Positions 31,238-63,963 of a DNA stretch of 64,000 nucleotides are shown piece by piece. Origin of the DNA: Eubacteriales bacterium (GTDB taxonomy: Bacteria; Bacillota; Clostridia; Lachnospirales; Lachnospiraceae); NCBI GenBank assembly GCA_030524175.1, contig JAUNHC010000016.1, forward strand, positions 1-64,000, in the 5' to 3' direction. The notes below the pieces were generated by a model, which was not told the origin of the DNA, searched no databases, and was given only the letters and a program-made list of their open reading frames with translations. Numbering within the stretch: the stretch's first letter is position 1; every line of letters begins with the position of its first letter. A program made the translations under genes and the position numbers.

Positions 31238-31248
31238 TGAACAGTTAC
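31238..31248. repeat. Single copy of the MITE terminal repeat
   Basis: TGAACAGTTAC is identical to the 11-bp end of the miniature elements at 51800 and 63790. No matching left end or target duplication is found nearby, so it may be a remnant or chance. Confidence 0.3.
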
Positions 31249-51729: not shown

Positions 51730-51799
51730 AAAATCGTGAAGAAAGATATATTCCGACGCCGGTCATATAAATGGTGTAAAATATGGGATATAAAAAGTG

Positions 51800-51863
51800 G
51801 TAACTGTTCAACGTTTTCGCACGGACTGTGCAGTAAATGCACAGTCCTGTACTGAACAGTTAC
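51800..51863. mobile_element. MITE copy 1 (64 bp, IS66-like ends)
   Basis: Terminal inverted repeats GTAACTGTTCA (51800-51810) and TGAACAGTTAC (51853-51863) enclose an inner perfect hairpin GGACTGTGCA/TGCACAGTCC. It is flanked by AAAAAGTG (51792-51799) and AGAAAGTG (51864-51871), a 7/8-matching 8-bp duplication. Sixty bases are identical, in opposite orientation, to 63790-63849. IS66-family elements are known for ends starting GTAA and 8-bp duplications. It sits between bceB and the response regulator gene. Confidence 0.85.
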
Positions 51864-51901
51864 AGAAAGTGATCTATAATATACGGCAAGGGGGGAGTTC
51901 T

Positions 51902-52588
51902 GTGAAGAGGATCGTTATTGTTGAGGATGAAGTGTTTATGCGTGAGGAATTAGTATCTATCTTAGAAAAAGAGAACTATGAAATTCACTGTATCACTTGT
52001 TTCTCCCATACTGCTTCTGATATTTTAAAGAATTCCCCTGACCTTGTGCTATTGGATCTGAACCTGCCGGGAGCCAGCGGGTTTGAGATATGTAAATTTC
52101 TGAGGAAAAAAAGCACAGTTCCCATCCTGGTTCTGACCAGCCGGGATCAGCTTAAGGATGAGCTGCATGCCCTGGGTCTTGGGGCGGATGAATTTCTCAC
52201 AAAGCCTTGTCATAAAGATCGTCTTCTTGCCAGGATCAGCAATCTGCTGCGCAGATATGAAGACCGGGAATATTTTGTGGAGACACAAGGGGCCAGGCTG
52301 GATATACGGACCTATACTTTATATTCTGAAGGAAAATCTATTGTATTGCCGGAGAATCAGGGGAAAATTCTGGAGCTTCTTATGTCCGCACAGGATGAGA
52401 TCGTGACAAAATCAGCACTTTTCCAGAAACTTTGGGGCACAATGGAATATGTGGACGAGAATGCCCTTCAGGTGAATATGACCAGGCTCAAAAAGACGCT
52501 GTCTTCTCTGGATACTGCATTAAAAATTGCCACGGTCAGGGGGAAGGGATACAGTCTGGAGGTGGCTGGCAGTGCATATGATGATTAA
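51902..52588 (+). CDS. bceR: Response regulator of the Bce module (OmpR type)
   Basis: A 228-residue OmpR-family regulator. The receiver has phospho-acceptor Asp52 in LVLLDLNLPG, EDE near the N-terminus and LTKPCHKDRL at the conserved Lys. The winged-helix effector has the ending NALQVNMTRLKKTL and TVRGKGYSLE. The start is GTG 51902, with GGGGGGAG 4 bases upstream; upstream in-frame codons run into the MITE. It is co-transcribed with the sensor kinase, and their ends overlap. The MITE may have changed how it is transcribed relative to bceAB. Confidence 0.9.
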   Translation: MKRIVIVEDEVFMREELVSILEKENYEIHCITCFSHTASDILKNSPDLVLLDLNLPGASGFEICKFLRKKSTVPILVLTSRDQLKDELHALGLGADEFLTKPCHKDRLLARISNLLRRYEDREYFVETQGARLDIRTYTLYSEGKSIVLPENQGKILELLMSAQDEIVTKSALFQKLWGTMEYVDENALQVNMTRLKKTLSSLDTALKIATVRGKGYSLEVAGSAYDD

Positions 52589-53618
52589 AAAACTGATCCG
52601 CATTTTCCTGAAATACAAGATATGGCTGGTTTTCATGTTTATTTGGAATATGGTGTTGGGAGCCTTTCTGTGGATTATGGATGCGGAGACATTCCCTTTT
52701 ATTTTCTCCACAATGCTGCTGGGATGTGCTGTTATCTGGGCTGGGATGGGATTCTGGATTTACAGGCGTGAGGAAGGAAGAGAAGAGTTGTTCCGGGAAT
52801 TTCTTGAGAATCCTGATATGTACCTGGAGGAACTTATTGCTGTAAGCAGCAGCCACAGTGAGAAGGAGGCAATACGGAACATAGCCGGAATCCTTGGGAA
52901 AAAAGATGCGGTGATCCGCACACAGGAGTCTAATATCCGGGAATATGAGGAATATATAGAAAAATGGGCACATGAGATTAAAACTCCGTTGTCTTTGATG
53001 ACCTTTATCCTTGACAACCGCAGAGAAGAGTTATCTCCTGAAATCTACCGCAGGCTGGAATATGTGAGGACAGAAATCCAGGAAGATATAGAAAAGATGC
53101 TCTTCTATGCCCGGCTGAAATCAGCCCATACAGACTATTTTTTTACTCTCTTAAACTTGGATGAAATCTGTAGGGAGGCAGTGGCGGAATACAGGATTCT
53201 GATGGAAGAAATGGGGATTTCAGTGATAAACCAAGCGGAAAATATCCTGGTTCTTTCTGACGAAAGGGGGCTGATGTTTATCCTGAGACAAATTTTGAGC
53301 AATTGTGTCAAATATATGAGCGGGCAGCATAGCCCGGTTATCCGCATAATGACAACAGTAAACGAAGAGGAGGGGAAGGCGGTACTTACCATAAGAGACA
53401 ACGGAACAGGGGTAAAGCCCTATGATCTTCCTTTCATTTTTGATAAAGGATTTACCGGAGATAAGGGACGGCAGGAAAAAAGTTCAACAGGGATGGGACT
53501 TTATCTTGCCCGCCAGGCCGCAGACAACCTGAAAATCGAGCTGAAGGTCTCCGGAGAATATAAAGATGGATTTGAGATCAGTCTCCTGTTTCCCCAGATA
53601 TGTGAAAAGGCCCGCTAA
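52578..53618 (+). CDS. bceS: Sensor histidine kinase of the Bce module (intramembrane-sensing)
   Basis: A 346-residue kinase of the BceS type: two TM helices close together (about 16-33 and 40-61) with almost no extracellular loop, so it cannot sense ligand itself and relies on BceAB. His132 lies in EKWAHEIKTPLSLM, and the HATPase domain has the N-box region LRQILSNCVKYMSG, IRDNGTGVKPYDLPFIFDKG and STGMGLYLARQAADNL. The start ATG 52578 (MMIKK) overlaps the bceR stop; GGAGG is 14 bases upstream. The next gene is convergent, 42 bp away, with a small AAGTCC/GGACTT hairpin between them. Confidence 0.9.
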   Translation: MMIKKLIRIFLKYKIWLVFMFIWNMVLGAFLWIMDAETFPFIFSTMLLGCAVIWAGMGFWIYRREEGREELFREFLENPDMYLEELIAVSSSHSEKEAIRNIAGILGKKDAVIRTQESNIREYEEYIEKWAHEIKTPLSLMTFILDNRREELSPEIYRRLEYVRTEIQEDIEKMLFYARLKSAHTDYFFTLLNLDEICREAVAEYRILMEEMGISVINQAENILVLSDERGLMFILRQILSNCVKYMSGQHSPVIRIMTTVNEEEGKAVLTIRDNGTGVKPYDLPFIFDKGFTGDKGRQEKSSTGMGLYLARQAADNLKIELKVSGEYKDGFEISLLFPQICEKAR

Positions 53619-53660
53619 GTCCAAAATACAGCGGACTTAAGCGGGCGCCTTATGCATTTC

Positions 53661-54677
53661 CTATTTACTTACGGCATTCTGTGCGTATTCGGTGGTTACC
53701 AAATCTTCATAGGCAACCCTTGTTTCCAGCTCACCGGCGCTGTCCAGAATATCCTGAAGCAGCTCGAAGCTGTCTTTTTCAAATACCAGATTATCTTTCC
53801 AGGTATCCTGGTCATAGTAACGTTTGACAATAGTAGTAACTGTGTCAAGGTCCGTCTCTGTAAACTGGGGAGCGATCACCTCTGCAATCTCTTCAGGAGT
53901 ATGGTTCTGCACGTAATCCATACCCTTCTGCAAAGCATTGGTAAATTTCTGTACAACGTCCGGATGCTCTTCCATAAAGCTGGTTTTTGCACTGTAGGAA
54001 GTATAGGGAACATAACCGGAGTCCACACCAAGGGAAGCAACGACGTAGCCGGCGCCTTCTTTTTCCAGGGCTGTGGCTGACGGCTCAAATTCGACGCTGA
54101 ACTCTCCTAAACCGCCCGAAAATGCGGCAGCGGTAGAACCGAAGTCAATGCTCTGGTCGATTTCCAGATCCTTTTCCGGGTCAATACCGTTCTCTTTAAG
54201 GATATATTCAAATACCATTTCGGGCATTCCGCCCTTCCGTCCTCCCAGTACCTTGCTGTCTTTTAGATCATTCCAGGTAAAGGAAGGCATTTCTTCCCGT
54301 GCCACCAGAAAGTTTCCGGCCCTCTGGGTGAGCTGTGCAAAGTTTACCACCGGGTCAGTGGCGCCTTCCTGGAAGGCATAGACAGATGCCTCTGCGCCCA
54401 TAAAGCCGATGTCTGCTTCGCCGGAGAGGACAGCGGTCATAGTTTTATCTGCGCCGAATCCTGTAACCAATGTGAGGTCAAGCCCTTCCTCTGCAAAATA
54501 TCCTTCCTCAATAGCCACATACTGGGGAGCATAAAAGATTGAATGTGCCACTTCATTTAATGTCACCTCAGTAAGCTCTGCGTCTTTAGCGTCCTTTTTG
54601 CCTGCAAAGGCAGTCACAGGCAGGGCGGTTGCCGCTAAAATTACGGCTGCCGCCACTGCGATCCATTTCTTCTTCAT
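53661..54677 (-). CDS. Orphan NMT1/ThiY-type ABC binding protein
   Basis: A 338-residue type II binding protein of the NitT/TauT/ThiY group. The signal peptide MKKKWIAVAAAVILAATALP ends AFAGKK with no Cys. Marks are HSIFYAPQYVAIEEGYFAEEG, cited in part (YAPQYVAIEEGYFAEEG), LSGEADIGFMGAEASV and the ligand-loop GGRKGGMPEMVFEYIL. Family members bind nitrate, taurine, sulfonates or thiamine precursors. No permease or ATPase gene adjoins; it is a single-gene unit between the Bce module and the DUF3791/DUF3990 genes. AAGGAGG precedes ATG 54677. The ligand cannot be named. Confidence 0.87.
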   Translation of the reverse strand: MKKKWIAVAAAVILAATALPVTAFAGKKDAKDAELTEVTLNEVAHSIFYAPQYVAIEEGYFAEEGLDLTLVTGFGADKTMTAVLSGEADIGFMGAEASVYAFQEGATDPVVNFAQLTQRAGNFLVAREEMPSFTWNDLKDSKVLGGRKGGMPEMVFEYILKENGIDPEKDLEIDQSIDFGSTAAAFSGGLGEFSVEFEPSATALEKEGAGYVVASLGVDSGYVPYTSYSAKTSFMEEHPDVVQKFTNALQKGMDYVQNHTPEEIAEVIAPQFTETDLDTVTTIVKRYYDQDTWKDNLVFEKDSFELLQDILDSAGELETRVAYEDLVTTEYAQNAVSK

Positions 54678-54872
54678 ATAATACAGCCTCCTTGTTTTGC
54701 TGATATATAATATATGGAGAAAAGGAAAGTTGGTGACTGATAGGGGGTGGATTTTTGAATATAAAAATTGTTTGCAGTGAATGCTAAAACGCGTCCTAAT
54801 ACAATGTGTATAAATGATATAATAAAAAGGTAAGTAGCTTGCCTTATGAAAAACGTCCTTCTTATATGAATA

Positions 54873-55103
54873 TTAATATTCCAGCTGTTTCAGCCTGCCA
54901 TTATCAAGTTCCGCTTTTAGAATATCATAAATATATGCTGCCCCTTCTAAATATAATCCGGTTTCCTCATCCAGTATTTTTTCATAGGTTTCGGATGTAT
55001 AAAGTATCCGCATTGCTTCTGTATAGTCTAATTTTCTGTCATCTACTAAGAAAGCCACGATATCTTGCGTGATGTATTCCATTAGCTGTTCCTGCTTACT
55101 CAT
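54873..55103 (-). CDS. DUF3791-family protein, second copy
   Basis: A 76-residue helical protein (MSKQEQLMEYITQDIVAFLV, MRILYTSETYEKILDEETGL, EGAAYIYDILKAEL). DUF3791 proteins are short, of unknown function, and are repeatedly found next to DUF3990 genes. ATG 55103 lies within the last codons of the DUF3990 gene (8-base overlap, ATGAGTAA), so translation is coupled. A longer in-frame start at 55112 is possible. It is the last gene of the trio. Confidence 0.8.
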   Translation of the reverse strand: MSKQEQLMEYITQDIVAFLVDDRKLDYTEAMRILYTSETYEKILDEETGLYLEGAAYIYDILKAELDNGRLKQLEY

Positions 55104-55605
55104 ATATAACACCTGCCTTTTTAAGATACGCTAAAGCCTTGGTCGTATGGAAGGAGTATTGATTAGTCAGTTTCTTAAATTCCATTTCTTTTACTAACGT
55201 ATCTACGCTAATCAATTTATTAGAAAACTGGCGGAAAAGCAGTGCTAAATCATCATTTGCAATGGGACCTGTAACAAAATCATACTTTAGATCATGGTTG
55301 CATTCTGTGTCAGTATGATCTTTAAAATCTCGATTGCGGTTATTGATCACGAATAATGCCCATTCTTTGCTGGGATTTTGAAAAATACGTGTGCTAAGGT
55401 TGGATTGTTTCAATAAAGAATTGTCGAAATCGAACACGGTCGTACAAGGTCTGCCGCCATAGATACGAGAAACCCTGTTTGCCATTTTTACAGCCTGTCC
55501 TGGCAAGCTGGTGAGATAGAAGCCTTGTCCAAAATCTTTGTAAGGCCGGCATCTCGATAAATCGATTTCATTTATTTCTATATTTGATCCATGATATAGT
55601 TTCAT
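55096..55605 (-). CDS. DUF3990-family protein (ADP-ribosyltransferase-like fold)
   Basis: A 169-residue protein starting MKLYHGSNIEINEID, with DFGQGFYLTSLPGQAVKMAN at about 24-43. The YHGS...GFYLT pattern is that of DUF3990, which is placed in the ADP-ribosyltransferase superfamily; the nucleotide-binding His and the GFYLT strand are present, and a catalytic Glu may lie toward the C-terminus (KEMEFKKLTNQYSFHT). It is overlapped at both ends by DUF3791 genes (4 bases upstream, 8 downstream). The arrangement suggests an effector with partner proteins, possibly a toxin-antitoxin type unit. That is inference; no activity is shown. Confidence 0.8.
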   Translation of the reverse strand: MKLYHGSNIEINEIDLSRCRPYKDFGQGFYLTSLPGQAVKMANRVSRIYGGRPCTTVFDFDNSLLKQSNLSTRIFQNPSKEWALFVINNRNRDFKDHTDTECNHDLKYDFVTGPIANDDLALLFRQFSNKLISVDTLVKEMEFKKLTNQYSFHTTKALAYLKKAGVIYE

Positions 55606-55826
55606 TCCAGCACACCTCCATTATTTTTACAGATTATTTCTAAATCTTCAATGGCATCATCCAGTGATAATGTGTGCTCTACGTCATAATTTTCCTTTAA
55701 GAAATCTAGTCCTTTATAATTATAGAGGTATAAAAAAGCGGCACGAGGATGCAGTGCTTTCTTTCGTGCAAATTCATTTACACAGACTACAGTGTAATTA
55801 ATTTGTTTTTTGATTGCTTCTGACAT
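55602..55826 (-). CDS. DUF3791-family protein, first copy
   Basis: A 74-residue helical protein (MSEAIKKQINYTVVCVNEFA, HPRAAFLYLYNYKGLDFLKE, SLDDAIEDLEIICKNNGG). The start is ATG 55826 after AGGAGGG; an in-frame extension to 55922 lacks a site. Its stop overlaps the DUF3990 start by four bases (ATGA). It differs from the second copy at 54873-55103 in sequence but shares the helix pattern, so the two are likely paralogues flanking one DUF3990 gene. Confidence 0.82.
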   Translation of the reverse strand: MSEAIKKQINYTVVCVNEFARKKALHPRAAFLYLYNYKGLDFLKENYDVEHTLSLDDAIEDLEIICKNNGGVLE

Positions 55827-55945
55827 AAGATCCGCCCTCCTTTTCTTATCTCTATTATAACCGAAATCACACAGTGAACCAAGATGATTTTTTAAATAGT
55901 GACCAGTAACCCAATAACACACCCTGGTAAACCGCAGCTGCCTTG

Positions 55946-57271
55946 TTAATTGGTATGCAGTATAATGTTAACACTGAAGTATTCACTGTCGTGTTTTACC
56001 TGCATATGGCCTTTATTTTTCTCTACAACATGTCTCACGGAAAGCAATCCCACACCGGCGCCTTCATGTTTGGTTGAATAGTACACACGATCTTTTACTA
56101 GAATTTTATTTCCGTATGTGTTTTTGATCATCAGTACCAAAAGGTCATCTTTCATGGCGGCAGTTATATTGATCAATTTATAAACTCCGTTTTGGCTGAT
56201 GCAGGCTTCGATGGCATTTTCAGCCAGATTTCCGAAGACAATACATAAATCAATATCTGAAAGGGACAGGGAACGGGGAAGGTCTGCCTTGATAGTTATA
56301 GTGATGCCCTCTGCCTTAGCCATTGCTCTGTAGTGCTGAAGAATGATATTTATCACATGGTTCTGACATACAGGGGCATCCTCTTCCGCCAGATATACAG
56401 GCATTAAATCGGCTGTATACTTAGTGAGTTCTTCTAATTTCTGTTCTTTTGCCAATCCGTAAATAGTGAGCAGATGGTGCCGCCAATCATGGCGTATACG
56501 TGTTGTTTCAGCGATGTTGTCCAATAGCTGCTGATATTGTTCTTCCTGCATTTTTAAGTGGGACAGTACCATTCTGGTCTGTTCCTCAGCTGTTATTTTT
56601 TGATAGGTCTGGATTAAAAGCAGCAATGCAATACAGAAAAATACATAAGAGCTGAAAGACCATAAAATAGAGAAGACCAGGTCGCTTGCCGTCACATATA
56701 TGGGATCCTCCCAGTAATCATTTATGATTTTTACATAAAAGATTAAGTAAGTCAGTGCCGGGATCAGCCAGATGTATTTCCAGGCAGAAAAATCTGTCTG
56801 GAATTCAATCACTTTTTTATAAAGCCGGAACATTAAAATCCAGATCAGGGGTATATACAGGATCAGGAGGCATGCTGATGTCACAGTCCGTGCCATATGC
56901 AGAGGGAGGTTCCAGTCCTCCAGACTCACTGCCAGCTTGGCGATGGTCATAATATCAGCATATAAATTCAAGGCAACAAGAACGATAAATAGAATCTCGC
57001 AAAAACTGGATTTTACTGTTATATAAAATATAAAGACAGTATACAGGATCCAGAAAATAATGGCTGGCGTATTGTATTTCTGATAAGGTGCGCCTGTTGT
57101 CAGAAACAGGATTGTCACAAGATCGCTGACAATTATAAGGGATAAGAGCAGCAGCCCCGTTTTAAGGTTGTTAAAACGGAGCCGGCTCTTTAATGGCACA
57201 AATATGAAAAAGAGAAAAATTACACAGCAGAAAAAGATTCTCAGGGAAATACTGATAATATCTGCTGTCAT
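55946..57271 (-). CDS. GHKL-type sensor histidine kinase (AgrC-like), no adjacent regulator
   Basis: A 441-residue kinase. Six to seven TM helices occupy about residues 5-222. A cytoplasmic coiled coil follows, then the H-box IRHDWRHHLLTIYG (His261) and a GHKL ATPase domain with NLAENAIEAC and GVGLLSVRHVVEKNKG. This is the architecture of AgrC/ComD peptide-pheromone receptors, but the gene is not followed by a LytTR regulator or a peptide-precursor gene. It is coupled by a four-base overlap to the upstream SH3b-protein gene, suggesting that the two products act together. Confidence 0.88.
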   Translation of the reverse strand: MTADIISISLRIFFCCVIFLFFIFVPLKSRLRFNNLKTGLLLLSLIIVSDLVTILFLTTGAPYQKYNTPAIIFWILYTVFIFYITVKSSFCEILFIVLVALNLYADIMTIAKLAVSLEDWNLPLHMARTVTSACLLILYIPLIWILMFRLYKKVIEFQTDFSAWKYIWLIPALTYLIFYVKIINDYWEDPIYVTASDLVFSILWSFSSYVFFCIALLLLIQTYQKITAEEQTRMVLSHLKMQEEQYQQLLDNIAETTRIRHDWRHHLLTIYGLAKEQKLEELTKYTADLMPVYLAEEDAPVCQNHVINIILQHYRAMAKAEGITITIKADLPRSLSLSDIDLCIVFGNLAENAIEACISQNGVYKLINITAAMKDDLLVLMIKNTYGNKILVKDRVYYSTKHEGAGVGLLSVRHVVEKNKGHMQVKHDSEYFSVNIILHTN

Positions 57272-58077
57272 TCCACTGCGGCGAGATAGTCACTGTAGGA
57301 ATATCCCACTTCCTTTGTTTTTTCAAAAGTGAAGCGGTACCAGCCGTTTTCTATTCCGCTGACTTTGACCTTGTCACCGATGGAAAGTGTACCAAGCACA
57401 GTACCGTTAAGGGAAGGTTCTGTACGTACATTTACAATATGTGTGGCTGCCATAGTCTGGGGAAAATCCGGTACAAGATAATCATCGTACACATAAACAG
57501 TCTCCCCCTTATTTTCACACTGATACCAGCACAGATTATCCAGATTTCCGGTCACATGAATATCAGTTCCTGCCTTCAGTACATCCACAATCGTACCGCC
57601 GGGCTGCCTGCGCATATTTACATCTACAGTGGCCTGCATCATAATATCCAGTTTTGTAAACTCATAGTCATCTTCCTGTGAACTCTCGTCTGATGCACCT
57701 CCTGTCCGATTGCCAAGATATTCTTCCTCAGGTACAAGGAAGCTTGTGTACACATAGGCGTTAGAGACATACCCCGGAATCTGATACCAGTCACAGTCAG
57801 TACGTCTGGCATTGACATAATATTTTTCACCGGGAGTCAGGACATCGATGATATTTCCATTTGGATAATCCCGGACATTTCCTGCACCTGTAGCCACATA
57901 ATATGTGCCGATATCTTCTAAGAGCGCAGAGTCATCTATCAGATCTCCGTCCTCCTTTAAATCGTGTTCAAGTGCTTCTCTGATATCAGAAGGCATAGCA
58001 CTTACAGGTGCTGTGAATGCCAGTGAAACAGCAATTACGGCTGCGCCTCCAAGGATGTTTCTGTTTTTCATCTTCAT
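57268..58077 (-). CDS. Secreted protein with three SH3b domains
   Basis: A 269-residue exported protein. The signal peptide covers about 1-27 (hydrophobic core, SAMPSD). Three bacterial SH3-like units follow at about 57-115 (GTYYVATGAGNVRDYPNG, WYQIPGYVSNAYVY), 147-205 (VDVNMRRQPGGTIVDVLKAG, WYQCEN) and 210-267 (ATHIVNVRTEPSLNGTVLG, GWYRFTFE). SH3b units bind wall peptides or mediate protein contacts. There is no catalytic domain or lipobox. AAGGAG sets ATG 58077. Its stop overlaps the GHKL kinase start, so it may be the ligand-facing partner of that kinase; this is inferred from gene coupling only. Confidence 0.85.
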   Translation of the reverse strand: MKMKNRNILGGAAVIAVSLAFTAPVSAMPSDIREALEHDLKEDGDLIDDSALLEDIGTYYVATGAGNVRDYPNGNIIDVLTPGEKYYVNARRTDCDWYQIPGYVSNAYVYTSFLVPEEEYLGNRTGGASDESSQEDDYEFTKLDIMMQATVDVNMRRQPGGTIVDVLKAGTDIHVTGNLDNLCWYQCENKGETVYVYDDYLVPDFPQTMAATHIVNVRTEPSLNGTVLGTLSIGDKVKVSGIENGWYRFTFEKTKEVGYSYSDYLAAVE

Positions 58078-58266
58078 AATGTTTTCTCCTTATTGTTTTC
58101 ATATATTTTGCCTTTGATTCAATTTGCTTTTAAACAACATGTTTTATATCCTTCATACGGACAGGCAAGTTATATGTTAATAAATACCATTCTATTTTAT
58201 AATATTTTGTAAAATAATGCATCGGTAATGTGGGGGTATTTTGTCAAAAATTACTTGAGAAGGTAA

Positions 58267-58275
58267 AATTGGTTG
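58267..58275 (+). promoter_or_regulatory. Upstream half-site for the MocR-type regulator
   Basis: AATTGGTTG (58267-58275) repeats the left arm of the palindrome at 58332, 65 bp upstream of it and 25 bp before the -35 box. Paired sites are usual for MocR regulators. Confidence 0.5.
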
Positions 58276-58299
58276 TAAAAAAATAAAGAGGATTGGATG

Positions 58300-58328
58300 T
58301 TGAAACATATAAAAACCACGATTATAAT
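58300..58328 (+). promoter_or_regulatory. Promoter of the MocR-type gene
   Basis: TTGAAA (58300-58305), 17-bp spacer, TATAAT (58323-58328). The operator palindrome follows the -10 by 3 bp. Confidence 0.75.
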
Positions 58329-58331
58329 AAA

Positions 58332-58349
58332 AATTGGTTGCAACCAATT
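58332..58349. promoter_or_regulatory. Perfect 18-bp palindromic operator
   Basis: AATTGGTTGCAACCAATT is fully self-complementary. It lies between the -10 box and the ribosome-binding site of the MocR-type gene, over the expected transcription start, so binding there should block its own promoter. Confidence 0.7.
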
Positions 58350-58359
58350 GGAGGGGAAT

Positions 58360-59868
58360 ATGAAAATTCAAATTGACAAGTCAAAAAAAGTACCGTTATA
58401 TAGACAGATTGCAGAGCAAATACAGATGCAGATAGCTTCCGGGGAAATTCCGGAGGGTTTCCAGTTTCCGTCAGAACGCCAGCTGGCAGATGCCCTGGGC
58501 GTGAACAGGACAACAGTGCTGAACGCCTACAAGGAACTGAAAGCAGACGGATTGATGGTTTCTCATGTGGGCAGGGGCACCATTGCCGCAAAGGGAGGCG
58601 GTGACGGGGTTTATAAGGAGAATTACCAAAAGGAACCTATATGGGAGTATTTGTACAGTGATTATCTGAAAAATCATGATAACTTTGATGTAAATAAATA
58701 TCTGGAAATCGCCAACCAGAAAAATGTCATATCCTTTGCCGCGGGTATCGCTTCTTTTGAACATCTGCCGTTCCAGGCCTATGAGGGATTAGAACGGGAG
58801 TTATTGTCTAAACAGAAAGAACTGCTGGTTTCTCCTGTCACTGGCTTTTCTTCTCTCCGGCAGGCAATATGTTCTTATATGGAAAAAAGATCTTGTTTCT
58901 GTAAGCCCTCAGAAATAATGGTATTATCCGGCTCTCAGCAGGGGATTGATCTTATTGCCAGGGCGTTTGTGAATCCGGGGGATGTTGTGATCATTGAAGA
59001 GCCTTCCTTCTTTCCTGCTATTCAAAGCTTTCGTATGGCAGGCGCCAAGCTGATGGCTGTGCCTGTGGAAGAAGACGGAATGAATATGGATATCTTAGAG
59101 CATCTTATGTCCCGTTATCAGCCCAAACTGATATATACAATGCCTGTGTACCATAATCCCTCCGGTGTTTCCATGAGTATGACAAAGCGTATCCGTCTGC
59201 TGGAGCTGTCCGGCCGGTACGGTGTGCCTGTGCTGGAGGATGACCCCTACAGTGAACTCTATTATGAAGGGGAGTCCATAACTCCGCTAAAGTCCATGGA
59301 CAAGAGTGGTTATGTTATCTATCTCAGCACCTTTTCAAAGACAGTATCTCCGGGACTGCGGCTTGGGTGGATGTGTGCCGGCAAAAAGCTTATTCATGAG
59401 CTTGCTAATATCAGGCAGCTGGTGGACCTCCACGCTAATTGTATTTCCCAGCTGATTGCAGAACGTTTTATTGTAAGCGGGCAGATGGAAATATACCTTG
59501 AATCGATCAGGAAAGAGTACCGGGACAGACGTGATATCATGACAGACGCTTTGAGGCGGTATGCACCGTCTGGATTATCCTGGAACAGTCCGGCAGGGGG
59601 ATATTACCTCTGGTGCAGACTTCCCCGGGGGCTGCCGGCGGAGAAGCTGGCGTCTGAAGCAGCAAAAAACGGTGTGGCTGTATTACCGGGGATGCCCTCT
59701 TTTCTTGTGAATGCTAAAGGCGAAAACTATATCAGATTAAATTACACATTTCCGCCCAAAAATAAGATTGCTGAAGGGATCAGGATACTGTGTGAGGTTA
59801 TAAAAAAGCTTATCTCTAAGGAGACGGAGGAAGTTCCGGTCTCCAATGAAATAAATCCCATATTATAA
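58360..59868 (+). CDS. MocR-type regulator (GntR winged helix fused to aminotransferase domain)
   Basis: A 502-residue fusion. The N-terminal GntR winged helix (about 1-70; VPLYRQIAEQIQMQIASGEI, FPSERQLADALGVNRTTVLN) is joined by a linker to a fold-type I PLP aminotransferase domain (about 105-490). The PLP lysine lies in YLSTFSKTVSPGLRLGW, and VLEDDPYSEL and MPVYHNPSGVSM are cofactor-site motifs. MocR proteins sense PLP adducts or amino-acid ligands and control vitamin B6, GABA, taurine or amino-acid genes. GGAGGGG sets ATG 58360. It is followed 11 bp later by a paralogous free aminotransferase, its probable target. Confidence 0.92.
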   Translation: MKIQIDKSKKVPLYRQIAEQIQMQIASGEIPEGFQFPSERQLADALGVNRTTVLNAYKELKADGLMVSHVGRGTIAAKGGGDGVYKENYQKEPIWEYLYSDYLKNHDNFDVNKYLEIANQKNVISFAAGIASFEHLPFQAYEGLERELLSKQKELLVSPVTGFSSLRQAICSYMEKRSCFCKPSEIMVLSGSQQGIDLIARAFVNPGDVVIIEEPSFFPAIQSFRMAGAKLMAVPVEEDGMNMDILEHLMSRYQPKLIYTMPVYHNPSGVSMSMTKRIRLLELSGRYGVPVLEDDPYSELYYEGESITPLKSMDKSGYVIYLSTFSKTVSPGLRLGWMCAGKKLIHELANIRQLVDLHANCISQLIAERFIVSGQMEIYLESIRKEYRDRRDIMTDALRRYAPSGLSWNSPAGGYYLWCRLPRGLPAEKLASEAAKNGVAVLPGMPSFLVNAKGENYIRLNYTFPPKNKIAEGIRILCEVIKKLISKETEEVPVSNEINPIL

Positions 59869-59879
59869 GGAGTATTACC

Positions 59880-61061
59880 ATGGAATATAAGTATGCAAAG
59901 AGAATGGAACATATAAAAGCATCCGAAATCAGAGAACTTTTAAAACTTACGGAAAAACCGGAAGTGATTTCTTTTGCCGGAGGACTGCCGGCACCGGAGC
60001 TGTTTCCTGTGGAAGAAATAAAGGCAGTGAATGATCATGTATTGGACCATCACGGGGAACAGGCACTGCAGTATGCCACTACAGAAGGTTACAAGCCCCT
60101 GCGGGAATGGATCGCGAAGAGGATGAATGCTAATTTAGGTACCTCTTTTAGCGATGACAATATTATGATAACACATGGATCACAGCAAGCCCTCGACCTT
60201 TCCGGCAAGGTGTTTCTGGATGAGGGGGATGTTGTGCTGTGTGAAAGCCCTACTTACCTGGCTGCCATCAGCGCCTTTAACGCCTATGGCTGCCGGTTTG
60301 TGGAAGTAGAGACTGACGAGGAAGGAATGATAATCACAGAATTGGAAAAAGCACTGAAAGTGAACCCCGGCTCTAAACTCATTTATGTGATCCCTGATTT
60401 CCAGAATCCAACAGGCAGGACCTGGAGTCTCAAGCGCCGCCGGGAACTGGCAGATATGGCGGCAAAATACCAGGTTATGGTGTTAGAAGACAATCCATAC
60501 GGAGAGCTTAGATATGAAGGTGAATTCCTGCCTTCCGTAAAGTCCTTTGACAGGGTGGGCAGCGTGGTTTGCACAGGTACATTTTCCAAAGTTTTCTGCC
60601 CCGGCTACAGGATTGGGTGGATTGCAGGTGAGAAAGAAGTTATCCGCAAGTATGTTCTGGTAAAGCAGGGGGTGGATCTGCAGTGTAATACCATAGCACA
60701 GATGGTGATCGCCGCTTATCTGGAGAAATATGATATTGATGCCCATATTAACAAAATACGGGAAGTGTACAGAAAGCGGCGGGATGTGGCCTTGGATGCT
60801 GTCAGCAGGTATTTCCCTTCTGATATAAAATATACGAAACCGGAAGGAGGACTTTTTCTTTGGATTGAACTGGGGGAATCCGTTAATACGGTTGACCTTC
60901 TTGAAAAATGTCTGGAATACGATGTGGCATTTGTTCCTGGAAATTCCTTTTACCCCAACCAGAATAAGTGTAATACACTCAGGATCAACTTTTCAAATAT
61001 GCAGGAAGATAAAATCACAGAAGGGATCGCACGTATAGGCAGGATCCTCCGGCACAGCTGA
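59880..61061 (+). CDS. PLP-dependent aminotransferase (2-aminoadipate/LysN-like)
   Basis: A 393-residue fold-type I aminotransferase. The opening YAKRMEHIKASEIRELLKLT, FAGGLPAPELFPVEEI, ITHGSQQALDLSGKVFLDEG, PDFQNPTGRTWS and the PLP lysine in CTGTFSKVFCPGYRIGW are typical of the 2-aminoadipate/aromatic transaminase subgroup close to MocR C-domains. It lies 11 bp after the MocR-type gene, with AAGGAG before the ATG, and ends 13 bp from the convergent LuxR-type gene. The amino-acid substrate cannot be fixed from sequence. Confidence 0.93.
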   Translation: MEYKYAKRMEHIKASEIRELLKLTEKPEVISFAGGLPAPELFPVEEIKAVNDHVLDHHGEQALQYATTEGYKPLREWIAKRMNANLGTSFSDDNIMITHGSQQALDLSGKVFLDEGDVVLCESPTYLAAISAFNAYGCRFVEVETDEEGMIITELEKALKVNPGSKLIYVIPDFQNPTGRTWSLKRRRELADMAAKYQVMVLEDNPYGELRYEGEFLPSVKSFDRVGSVVCTGTFSKVFCPGYRIGWIAGEKEVIRKYVLVKQGVDLQCNTIAQMVIAAYLEKYDIDAHINKIREVYRKRRDVALDAVSRYFPSDIKYTKPEGGLFLWIELGESVNTVDLLEKCLEYDVAFVPGNSFYPNQNKCNTLRINFSNMQEDKITEGIARIGRILRHS

Positions 61062-61074
61062 CTCAATGCAGGGG

Positions 61075-63585
61075 TTAAGGTTCGTCCAAGAGATGAAGCC
61101 GTCGGATTATCTGAATGGCTTCATCCATAGAGCCGGCATCCAGTTTTCTGTAGATCAGCTCTATGTGGGAGCGGACAGTAGAAAACTGAACACCCAGTTC
61201 CTCCGCAATTTTGCGGTAGCTGTAGCCCTGGCACATGAGTCTGGCAACTTTCTTTTGCTTCTGGGTAAGCTTTATTTCCGGTTCCTTTCTCTCATTTTTA
61301 GTAATGGTGCTGCAGCTATCCTGTTCTGCAGCGCCTATGTACAGCTTTCTGACAAAGGTAGGCGAAAGCGGGCCTGTATAGTCACTGCGCATGGTCCAGT
61401 TTTTAAGGCTTGATAAAATATTTTTCAGATTGGCACCGTGGCTGATAAAGGCCTGTTCATACCCTATAGGCTGGGCGGTCAATACTGCTTCCTCCAGACA
61501 GGACAGTGCCTGCTTATGGGATCCGCGTTTCTTTTTCCAATAAGAGACTGCAAGGAGAATCTCAGCCTCTATGATATCAGCAGTTCTTTTCATGGCTTTG
61601 CACATCTCAAGAAGTTTTTCCAGCAGGATAATGGAATGGCTGTAATCTTCCAGGACAATGTAAGCTTCGGCTGTGGTGAAATGTCCGTACAGCCTGTAGA
61701 AATCCAAGGGGCCATACACCTCAGTCCCTCTGGATTCAAGCCATCTGCGGGCAGCTTCGGTGTCGCCGGATCCCATCTGGTTTCTGCACACTGCGGCATC
61801 AAAATTGAACTGAAGATAGAGTGCCTTATCCTTGTCGATCATTTTTTGGATATCTTTCTGGATCAAGGCTTCCTGTTCCGGCTGTTTCATGGCGTGAGTC
61901 ACAGCCAGCAGCAACATCATAGCGCAGAAATTTGATTCCGGCGCAAAGCCGTCCTGCAATTCAGTGACTGCACAGACTGCCAGTTCCTGGGCACGCTGCA
62001 TATTTCCCTGTTCATAATAAAGCCCTCCGCGGATACAGTCCAGCACCATGGTGCATTCACTTCCCAGAAGAGGCCCGAGTATCTGCCCAAGGCTCATGAC
62101 GCTTTCATCAATATCCCCTGGCAGCAGTTCTGAAAAATCTCTGTAAGATTTGTGATAGAAGGGAAGATACAGGGTGGCTGAACCGCGCACGCCCTGGAAC
62201 ATGCCGGAGAATTGTGCTTCGGAAGCGGCTTTTGCAATTTCTTTTAAAGTGATACGGAAATCCATGGAGTACAGAAAGAAGATATTGTGTGCCAGTTCAG
62301 GATTCCGTTCTGCAATCTTAGGATAATTCCGGTAATAATTGTCCGCATAAATCTTGAAATCTTCAATTTGTCCTTCATTGCGGGCGGTGAAGGCCATCAT
62401 AAAATACAGATGAGGATATCTTACCAATATGTTTTCGTCAAGGGTACTGCGGACAGCAAGCATGACCTGTTCAGCATCAAATCCGGCCCTGTCCATTTCC
62501 TCCAGCAGATCAAAGCAGCGGGCTATATGCTCATAGTCTTTGATATAAGAAAATCTTTCCACTGCATGATAAAAATCTTTATGCGCCAGATACCATTTTC
62601 CGGACTTCTGAATCTGGCCTTCACGGTATTCCGGGGGCATATCAAGAAACAGCTTTCTCAGAAATTCCCGGAACAGTCTGTGAAACCTGTAAGTGTGTCC
62701 CTCTTGTTTGTATAAAAACGCACCTTTTGTCACCAGTTCTTCAAGAAATCCAAGGCTGTCTTTTTCTCCTGTCAGCGCGCAGCAGATTTCTTCTGACAAC
62801 TCTTCTTCTATACATGTCCCAAGCATAAATTTCTTAATGCGGTCATCCCATATTTCCCACACCTGGGTTTTCAAAAAACTTTCCAGCCAGTGAGGCGACA
62901 GGTTTTTATCCGGCATATGACTGGCGGAAAGGAGCAGGGCGTTAATTCCGATAGGCCAGCCTTCCGTAAGCCGGAGAATCTCATCGGCCTCCGCGGGGGT
63001 TATGGCAAGGCTTTTATTTTTGTACAATTCACAGATTTCCCTGTTATCAAAAAGAAGCTGCTCCTGGGGAATAAATTGAATCTGATTTTTCAGAACCAGC
63101 CCGCTGAAGGCTTCCGGAAGTGAACTTCTGCTCAGAATGCATATTCTTATCCCTGAGGGAAGGCGAAGGATAAAATCCTTCAGGAGTTTTTGCGCAGAAA
63201 GATCTGTCAAATAGTGAAGGTCATCTATGACGAGATTAGCCGTTAAGTTTCCGGGCAGGGTTATGGCAGCCCTCATAAGAAATTCCACGGGGGCTTTGGT
63301 GAAGCCGGGATGTCTTGTGTATGCAGTTACGGTTTCCGGGAATTCCTCTGTGCACATAGCCTCCAAGGCTTTTTTCAGCTTGCAGCATATATCTGCCGGT
63401 GTATTGTCGTATTCATCTATGGTGATCATCCCGGAGGGCCCTTTTCTGCTGTCCAGCCATTGTGCTGCAAATATTGTCTTGCCGTAACCGGCGGGAGCCT
63501 GTACGTACAGGATACGGCATTGGCCCATTGCTTCTGCCAAGTCTGTCAATCTGCTGCGATGAATCATAATATTAGATGATATCAC
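61075..63585 (-). CDS. LuxR-family regulator of the MalT (STAND ATPase) type
   Basis: An 836-residue regulator. The N-terminal NTPase has Walker A APAGYGKT (residues 30-37) and Walker B-like LVIDDLHYL; a winged-helix/arm region follows (about 250-350), then a TPR-like helical sensor (about 350-740) and a LuxR HTH at the C-terminus (about 770-832; LTQKQKKVARLMCQGYSYRK, VQFSTVRSHIELIYRKL). MalT-like proteins are switched on by a small ligand bound to the helical domain and ATP. The start is GTG 63585, five bases after GGAGGT. It is divergent from the partial kinase gene and convergent with the aminotransferase. Target unknown. Confidence 0.9.
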   Translation of the reverse strand: MISSNIMIHRSRLTDLAEAMGQCRILYVQAPAGYGKTIFAAQWLDSRKGPSGMITIDEYDNTPADICCKLKKALEAMCTEEFPETVTAYTRHPGFTKAPVEFLMRAAITLPGNLTANLVIDDLHYLTDLSAQKLLKDFILRLPSGIRICILSRSSLPEAFSGLVLKNQIQFIPQEQLLFDNREICELYKNKSLAITPAEADEILRLTEGWPIGINALLLSASHMPDKNLSPHWLESFLKTQVWEIWDDRIKKFMLGTCIEEELSEEICCALTGEKDSLGFLEELVTKGAFLYKQEGHTYRFHRLFREFLRKLFLDMPPEYREGQIQKSGKWYLAHKDFYHAVERFSYIKDYEHIARCFDLLEEMDRAGFDAEQVMLAVRSTLDENILVRYPHLYFMMAFTARNEGQIEDFKIYADNYYRNYPKIAERNPELAHNIFFLYSMDFRITLKEIAKAASEAQFSGMFQGVRGSATLYLPFYHKSYRDFSELLPGDIDESVMSLGQILGPLLGSECTMVLDCIRGGLYYEQGNMQRAQELAVCAVTELQDGFAPESNFCAMMLLLAVTHAMKQPEQEALIQKDIQKMIDKDKALYLQFNFDAAVCRNQMGSGDTEAARRWLESRGTEVYGPLDFYRLYGHFTTAEAYIVLEDYSHSIILLEKLLEMCKAMKRTADIIEAEILLAVSYWKKKRGSHKQALSCLEEAVLTAQPIGYEQAFISHGANLKNILSSLKNWTMRSDYTGPLSPTFVRKLYIGAAEQDSCSTITKNERKEPEIKLTQKQKKVARLMCQGYSYRKIAEELGVQFSTVRSHIELIYRKLDAGSMDEAIQIIRRLHLLDEP

Positions 63586-63789
63586 TGTATACCTCCATGG
63601 CTTACGAAATTTTGTCTATATCTTCCTCTTCAGGGCACTTATGTGTGATAGGACTGATTGAAACCCTGATGGATTCAGTACAGAATAATTTTATCATTCT
63701 TAGAGCGGCCAGTCAAATTTGCCGGAGCTTTTTTGTCAGATTGTGATTGGTGTCACGGATTTTTCAGGGGGTAATAAGGTAGAATCATG

Positions 63790-63924
63790 GTAACTGTTCA
63801 GTACAGGACTGTGCATTTACTGCACAGTCCGTGCGAAAACGTTGAACAGCCAAAAGCAAGCCCCATCGCCAAAGGCGATTTTCATGGGCTTGCGGCGTAA
63901 CTGTTCATGGTTCTGAACAGTTAC
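63790..63924. mobile_element. MITE copy 2 (135 bp, compound, IS66-like ends)
   Basis: The outer ends are GTAACTGTTCA (63790-63800) and TGAACAGTTAC (63914-63924). It is flanked by a perfect 8-bp duplication GAATCATG (63782-63789 and 63925-63932). Bases 63790-63849 equal the reverse complement of copy 1. A second hairpin GCAAGCCC/GGGCTTGC (63856-63863/63886-63893) and a third made of a further inverted-repeat pair (63897-63924) follow. There is no ORF; transposition would need an IS66-type transposase in trans. It lies between the LuxR-type and kinase genes; the rest of the 63586-63963 gap shows no other gene. Confidence 0.88.
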
Positions 63925-63963
63925 GAATCATGATATTACATTCTACCATTTGGAGGTATCACT

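Follow-up and report, generated by a model that had tools for sequence, protein, structure and literature searches.

The insertion sequence ISDge4, of the ISBst12 group of the IS66 family, has the ends GTGACTACTCAGCA and GTAACTGCTCAGCA, is flanked by an 8-bp repeat and has been seen to transpose in the laboratory (PMC12898284). Bacterial miniature inverted-repeat transposable elements (MITEs) are the subject of a review that names the BOX elements of Streptococcus pneumoniae and in whose main text neither 'IS66' nor 'Clostridi' occurs (PMC10969869). The Clostridiales-1 RNA (RF01699) has been described as 'probably RNA, probably not cis-regulatory' (PMC2864571). The present analysis concerns a MITE family found in a 64,000-nucleotide stretch (hereafter the window: positions 1 to 64,000 of contig JAUNHC010000016.1, assembly GCA_030524175.1) of a Lachnospiraceae genome. 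Two elements of the window, of 64 and 135 bp, have 60 bases in common in opposite orientation and are both bounded by GTAACTGTTCA/TGAACAGTTAC (Table 1). The flanking 8-mers of the 135-bp copy are identical (GAATCATG/GAATCATG, 8/8) and those of the 64-bp copy nearly so (AAAAAGTG/AGAAAGTG, 7/8). In coordinates, ends, shared bases and flanking repeats, comparison of the sequences agreed exactly with a preliminary description of the window, and neither element contains an open reading frame (ORF) for a transposase, as that description had held.

With a probability of about four in five, these elements belong to a non-autonomous MITE family that is driven by an IS66-type transposase and whose short copies arise by collapse in place. 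The elements insert with 8-bp target duplications and were most likely moved in trans, by an IS66-family transposase of the ISBst12 kind that is encoded in a single ORF. Three consecutive hairpins make up the full element of approximately 135 bp, which is closed by GTAACTGTTCA/TGAACAGTTAC; after insertion, deletion between internal direct repeats, probably through replication slippage at the hairpins, would collapse it to 64 or 28 bp and leave the duplications intact.

The genome that contains the window is a draft of 119 contigs, 90.7% complete. The 135-mer as query matched 32 places in it: ten full-length at 97-100% identity, one of 125 bp (91%), and a diverged 137-bp copy (L017, 72%). The remaining places are shorter, several of them pieces of about 60 bp and many 28-34 bp long. 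These matches, together with the end pattern, gave 29 copies with both outer ends defined (11 of 125-135 bp, the diverged 137-bp copy, 3 of 64 bp and 14 of 28 bp), leaving out truncated, fragmentary or single-end loci (L015, L016, L028, L032-L034, L035), an end near base 387 of L031, and window positions 31238-31248. The preliminary description had spoken of a two-member family; two bounded copies do lie in the window, and the further copies that it proposed to search for are abundant by 135-mer match, end pattern and bounded copies alike. Among the 14 solo 28-bp copies, all at other sites, 10 are identical to the 28-bp palindrome at one end of the 135-mer (module A) and 4 are close variants. 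Searched with the 135-mer, plasmids and phages gave no match.

Flanking 8-mers are identical in 18 of the 29 bounded copies and match in at least 7 of 8 positions in 24 (full copies, 9/11; diverged copy, 1/1; 64-bp copies, 2/3; 28-bp copies, 12/14), versus 1 of 812 mismatched pairs of left and right 8-mers from different copies. L003 and L008 miss this threshold owing to shifted or homopolymer repeats, and L014, L018 and L037 are also under 7/8. The target octamers are 70% A+T. The genome contains 69 exact occurrences of GTAACTGTTCA, 34 on the forward and 35 on the reverse strand, versus a single one of the same pattern read backwards, and 27 of the 29 copies have no stop-free frame of 120 codons running across them. 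The elements are short, non-coding and multi-copy, and have inverted terminal repeats and target-site duplications, as expected of MITEs.

Matches to the 135-mer were found in 16 of the 60 genomes of the genus that were searched, the genome of the window included. An exact scan of genome contigs for the 28-bp frame gave at least 118 stretches, the counts being lower bounds, of which 104 fall in two sister metagenome-assembled genomes (MAGs), CAMWUK (G064, titled Clostridiaceae) and JAAVHR (G065, titled Clostridiales); the other 14, among the matches listed, are in JAAVZU, UBA3814 and RUG231, whose records bear the title Lachnospiraceae, in the Lachnospiraceae species Faecalicatena orotica and F. 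contorta, and in a Ruminococcus MAG. The two sister MAGs contain 52 full elements with a recognisable far end (27 + 25), 41 of which have duplications of at least 7/8, and 28 more full elements without a recognised far end were left unscored. Identity of paired flanking sequences between the two MAGs is 84-100%, and at least 95% for most. Insertion into a previously empty site was seen for family members in these two MAGs only, for the solos L160, L179 and L158 and for one full copy: a 294-bp copy (L106) with the duplication TACACTAT faces a site (L120) from which the element and one duplication are absent, and the duplication copy remaining there differs in one base (7/8).

The full elements have a constant build of module A, module B (a hairpin with the core TCGCC-NNN-GGCGA) and module C (a hairpin with GCAGTAAATGC). 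The 135-mer also contains two pairs of direct repeats that derive from its end sequences: GTAACTGTTCA at bases 1 and 108, and TGAACAG at bases 54 and 125. Read on the opposite strand, the 64-mer is identical to bases 1-60 of the 135-mer joined to its bases 132-135, that is, to the element with the stretch between the TGAACAG repeats deleted, and deletion from one copy of GTAACTGTTCA to the other leaves exactly 28 bp, GTAACTGTTCATGGTTCTGAACAGTTAC.

Orthologous sites in the sister MAGs present short and long forms of the same insertions. A 28-bp copy (L180) and a 54-bp remnant (L193), the latter consisting by reading of pieces of modules C, B and A, occupy one site with the same duplication, AAGACTAG; a 28-bp copy (L211) and a 294-bp copy (L299) end at the same base; and two shared insertions differ in length by a Clostridiales-1 insert (L115/L204, 135 versus 295 bp; L128/L098, 296 versus 135 bp). 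Thus, short forms can arise in place, and the most plausible reading of the 64-bp forms, and of most 28-bp ones, is that they are scars of collapse by deletion. The preliminary description is corrected in this respect, the 64-bp copy of the window being best read as a deletion product of a longer element. Given L180/L193, the proposition that solos must be independently mobile is not needed.

Thirty solos in the two MAGs have at least 100 bp of flank (one more was skipped for a short flank), and 18 of them were queried against the sister genome; the remaining 12 were already paired among the loci or lack a recognisable duplication. Three of those queried face an empty site, four another solo (L101 by reading; L165, L174 and L097 by match length), one a full element, and three another element, a remnant or a deletion (L134, L200, L156), while seven gave half a match or none (L163, L125, L181, L144, L192, L197, L206). 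Further ortholog pairs are full/full (L103-L137, L129-L155, L143-L196) or solo/solo (L164-L189); pairs with the solos of L128, L152, L204 and L120 and with one full copy of L200 were read as ambiguous or deleted. Only solo sites were queried against whole sister genomes, so that full copies facing empty sites are under-counted and no rates can be derived.

The search for a driver covered the genus and the family. IS66 transposases (PF03050) are encoded in 31 of 64 genus genomes. Among 30 transposase loci fetched, five have bounded ends, all with perfect 8-bp duplications: a longer IS66 element with the end GTAAGCG (L073), and L085, L091, L092 and L093, whose ends follow the pattern GTWACNNTTCA. 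A profile of such proteins matched 17 of 397 genomes family-wide at 1e-60, and a piece of the L085 protein matched 4 of 397 at 1e-50. Inspection of 25 loci (L243-L267) added L249, L256 and L259, with such ends and again perfect duplications, L243 being L091 once more. L092, L093, L249, L256 and L259 begin with GTTAC, not GTAAC. The best end match is that of L260 (L351), an element of 1,824 bp with one ORF of 487 amino acids (part masked) and the ends GTAACTGTTCAGAACC and GTATCTGTTCAGAACC: the former matches module A in 16 of 16 bases, and the latter is the second end type found in the MITEs. The match to module A is 15/16 in L085, L258 and L354, versus 8-10/16 in the longer element L073. L258 (L352), with the end GTAACTATTCAGAACC, has a transposase that passes PF03050 and the NCBIfam IS66 cut-off (264 versus 180); L091, the L085 pieces, L092, L093 and L090 pass PF03050 and do not reach the NCBIfam cut-off. 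Ends of the MITE type are thus common to autonomous IS66-family elements, including ones with 8-bp duplications, which supports the IS66-driven reading of the preliminary description, the presumed driver being drawn from relatives. On the grounds of their single ORF and their ends, not of a formal classification, these partners may be called ISBst12-like. Module A itself looks like two IS66-type ends back to back. In F. orotica (L246:1501-1810), a piece of an IS66-like transposase is followed by GTTCAGCCTATGGCTGAACTGTTAC, a palindromic end like module A.

Another MITE, of 144 bp (L298:216-359), has the ends GTTACTGTTCAC and GTTATTGTTCAC, the duplication TATTTTAC and, by reading, a similar three-part layout. 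Its end GTTACTGTTCAC is identical over 12 bases to the ends of L093 and L249, and MITE end types may follow IS66 end types. In a genus subfamily (L046-L049, L052, L056, L057, L060), modules A and B are kept and the third module differs (GTCTCGGGATTTT..AAAACACCTCG); several of its copies have 8-bp duplications by reading.

The hairpins of the element are strong (z -6.6 to -9.4). In an alignment of 15 sequences, 98.1% of cells are paired, and 39 cells are changed on both sides, versus a mean of 12.5 after shuffling (0 of 500 shuffles reach 39) and at most 6 when the structure is slid. Pairs with two-sided changes number 8, versus a shuffled mean of 5.3 (3 of 500 reach 8), and compensatory changes are present in all three helices. 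The structure was derived from the same alignment that scored its pairing and is hence favoured by these figures, and template switching within DNA palindromes can also give compensatory changes; the changes therefore show conserved hairpins and are not proof of an RNA.

Several observations weigh against an IS66-driven family with collapse in place. At L211, the left end of the deletion lies outside the element. No empty allele was found for either window site in the relatives compared, so that the empty sites anticipated by the preliminary description were seen for family members in the two MAGs and not for its own two elements: the best relative (G053) is 72-83% identical over stretches nearby, its sequence past the gene at 61075-63585 does not align and offers no site comparable to that at 63790, and no syntenic stretch was found in relatives for the site at 51800. 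Solos L160, L179 and L158 face empty sister sites (flank identity 100, 95 and 97%, respectively), and collapse alone can account for such pairs only if an element inserted and then collapsed, or if the sister lost it precisely. Of the candidate partners, L260 has no duplication (2/8), and L258, L353 and L354 each gave a single similar end only. The genome of the window gave no IS66 transposase with PF03050 or an eight-row IS66-like profile (A1) at E 0.001 (0 matches), and none in the family-wide profile (1e-60) and L085-protein (1e-50) searches at those E limits only. An IS66 element with similar ends, whose absence from the genome the preliminary description had named as telling against its reading, is accordingly present in relatives and was not found in this draft; the partner transposase may have been lost or may lie in unassembled sequence.

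The three solo/empty pairs, with flanks 95-100% identical, also bear on whether the 64-bp and 28-bp forms are themselves mobile, with the transposase using internal ends and inserting them directly with 8-bp duplications. The duplications of solos are as intact as those of full copies (12/14 versus 9/11 at 7/8 or better), as this would predict, yet solos at the same insertion sites as longer forms (L180/L193, L211/L299) show that collapse in place happens, and since the solos are the predicted deletion product, their geometry gives no preference to direct insertion. DNA of 28 bp would also probably need to be bent into the transposase complex with its ends abutting. The solo/empty pairs fit either direct 28-bp insertion or collapse, and independent mobility of the short forms is considered unlikely. 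The narrower proposal, that the 28-bp palindrome is a transposable unit made of two IS66-type ends back to back, is just as doubtful, if not slightly more so; if true, it would place this palindrome among the shortest DNA sequences inserting with target duplications.

It is improbable that a transposase of another family with 8-bp duplications moved the elements and that their match to IS66 ends is coincidental: the absence of detected IS66 transposases from the genome would fit, but the end matches of 16/16 and, several times, 15/16 to IS66-type elements argue otherwise, as does the second MITE subfamily (L298), of which one end equals those of L093 and L249 over 12 bases and the other is GTTATTGTTCAC. 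Repetitive extragenic palindromic (REP) sequences or their hairpin-forming doublets (REPINs) moved by an HUH transposase, or RNA or terminator hairpins spread by recombination, would account for the strong hairpins, the compensatory changes in all three helices and the 27 of 29 copies outside long stop-free frames, but are very improbable, because the 8-bp duplications, a feature not expected of REPs, and the empty site point to staggered-cut insertion by a DDE-type enzyme, and the window element has no Rfam match.

Some of the elements contain a Clostridiales-1 RNA between modules B and C (L106:1217-1374, L128:5743-5900, L170:7524-7681). Among 30 Clostridiales-1 loci fetched from the two MAGs, 6 lie inside elements as judged by ends and duplication, 8 by flanking modules A/C, and 10 by either; around 30 loci from the genus (three with short flanks), no GT..AC element with an 8-bp duplication was found. 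A constant association of the family with this RNA is ruled out by these counts (10/30 and 0/30). Clostridiales-1 is a high-copy dispersed repeat, with 92 and 91 matches in the two MAGs and 9 in the genome of the window; of 64 genus genomes, 49 contain it at E 0.001 and 43 over the gathering score. Stand-alone copies have inverted ends (TGATACC..GGTATCA in the genus, TGAAAG..CTTTCA in the MAGs; L226, L213, L215; L322, L324, L336), which suggests that Clostridiales-1 may be a mobile or repeat element in its own right.

In the window, the 135-bp copy has as neighbours a gene with domains of the LuxR and MalT types and a gene for a PfkB-family kinase, and the 64-bp copy is immediately upstream of a response-regulator gene. 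Only a tRNA reaches the Rfam gathering score in the window. A single exact GTAACTGTTCA at 31238-31248, on the minus strand, has no exact partner end close by and represents either chance or a decayed copy.

Table 1. Positions of the two elements in the window, with their target duplications, modules and internal direct repeats.
Feature	Position	Strand	Remark
Copy 1, 64 bp	51800..51863	-	equals nt 1-60 joined to nt 132-135 of copy 2
Left target duplication AAAAAGTG of copy 1	51792..51799	.	7/8 match to right copy
Right target duplication AGAAAGTG of copy 1	51864..51871	.	
Copy 2, 135-bp three-hairpin element	63790..63924	+	100% match at two other places in the genome, L002 and L003
Left target duplication GAATCATG of copy 2	63782..63789	.	
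Right target duplication GAATCATG of copy 2	63925..63932	.	
Module C: end and hairpin with conserved GCAGTAAATGC (GCATTTACTGC on + strand)	63790..63849	+	
Module B: middle hairpin, core TCGCC-NNN-GGCGA	63856..63893	+	
Module A: 28-bp palindrome; outer 16 bases = IS66-type end in L260	63897..63924	-	
Direct repeat GTAACTGTTCA, copy 1	63790..63800	+	deletion as far as copy 2 leaves the 28-bp form
Direct repeat GTAACTGTTCA, copy 2	63897..63907	+	
Direct repeat TGAACAG, copy 1	63843..63849	+	deletion as far as copy 2 leaves the 64-bp form
Direct repeat TGAACAG, copy 2	63914..63920	+	

No account of this MITE family turned up in the open-access literature, searched mostly at listing level. To the IS66 reading are added the size of the family, its three-hairpin anatomy, the empty sites in relatives and the reading of short copies as collapse scars. 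Scattered 28-bp and 64-bp palindromes, otherwise mistakable for terminators or regulatory sites, are thereby given a likely origin, and orthologous pairs in which a collapsed transposon has kept its duplications make rates of insertion and collapse measurable by strain comparison. IS66 elements of the ISBst12 kind are linked to miniature relatives, and Clostridiales-1, an RNA class known from comparative genomics, is found to be carried within such elements.

The family resembles the ISBst12 group in its ends (GTAACTGCTCAG in ISDge4, GTAACTGTTCAG here), in its 8-bp duplication and in the single-ORF transposase of its presumed partners, but the window elements have no transposase ORF and have only the terminal 12-16 bp in common with that group, and no partner was found in their own draft genome. 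Nearly precise excision of Tn10 is comparable, in that an element with inverted repeats is shortened by deletion between two short direct repeats within it, so that a small remnant and intact target duplications stay behind; in the present family the element is of 135 bp and the events are seen by comparison of sequences only. BOX elements, too, are modular repeats that form hairpins, and their likeness to the present family is one of build. With bacterial MITEs as reviewed, the family has in common that it is short, non-coding, multi-copy and mostly intergenic, with inverted ends and target duplications; unlike them, it has three hairpins conserved across species and internal repeats through which the element collapses to a scar of 28 bp, and some of its copies in the two MAGs contain a Clostridiales-1 RNA.

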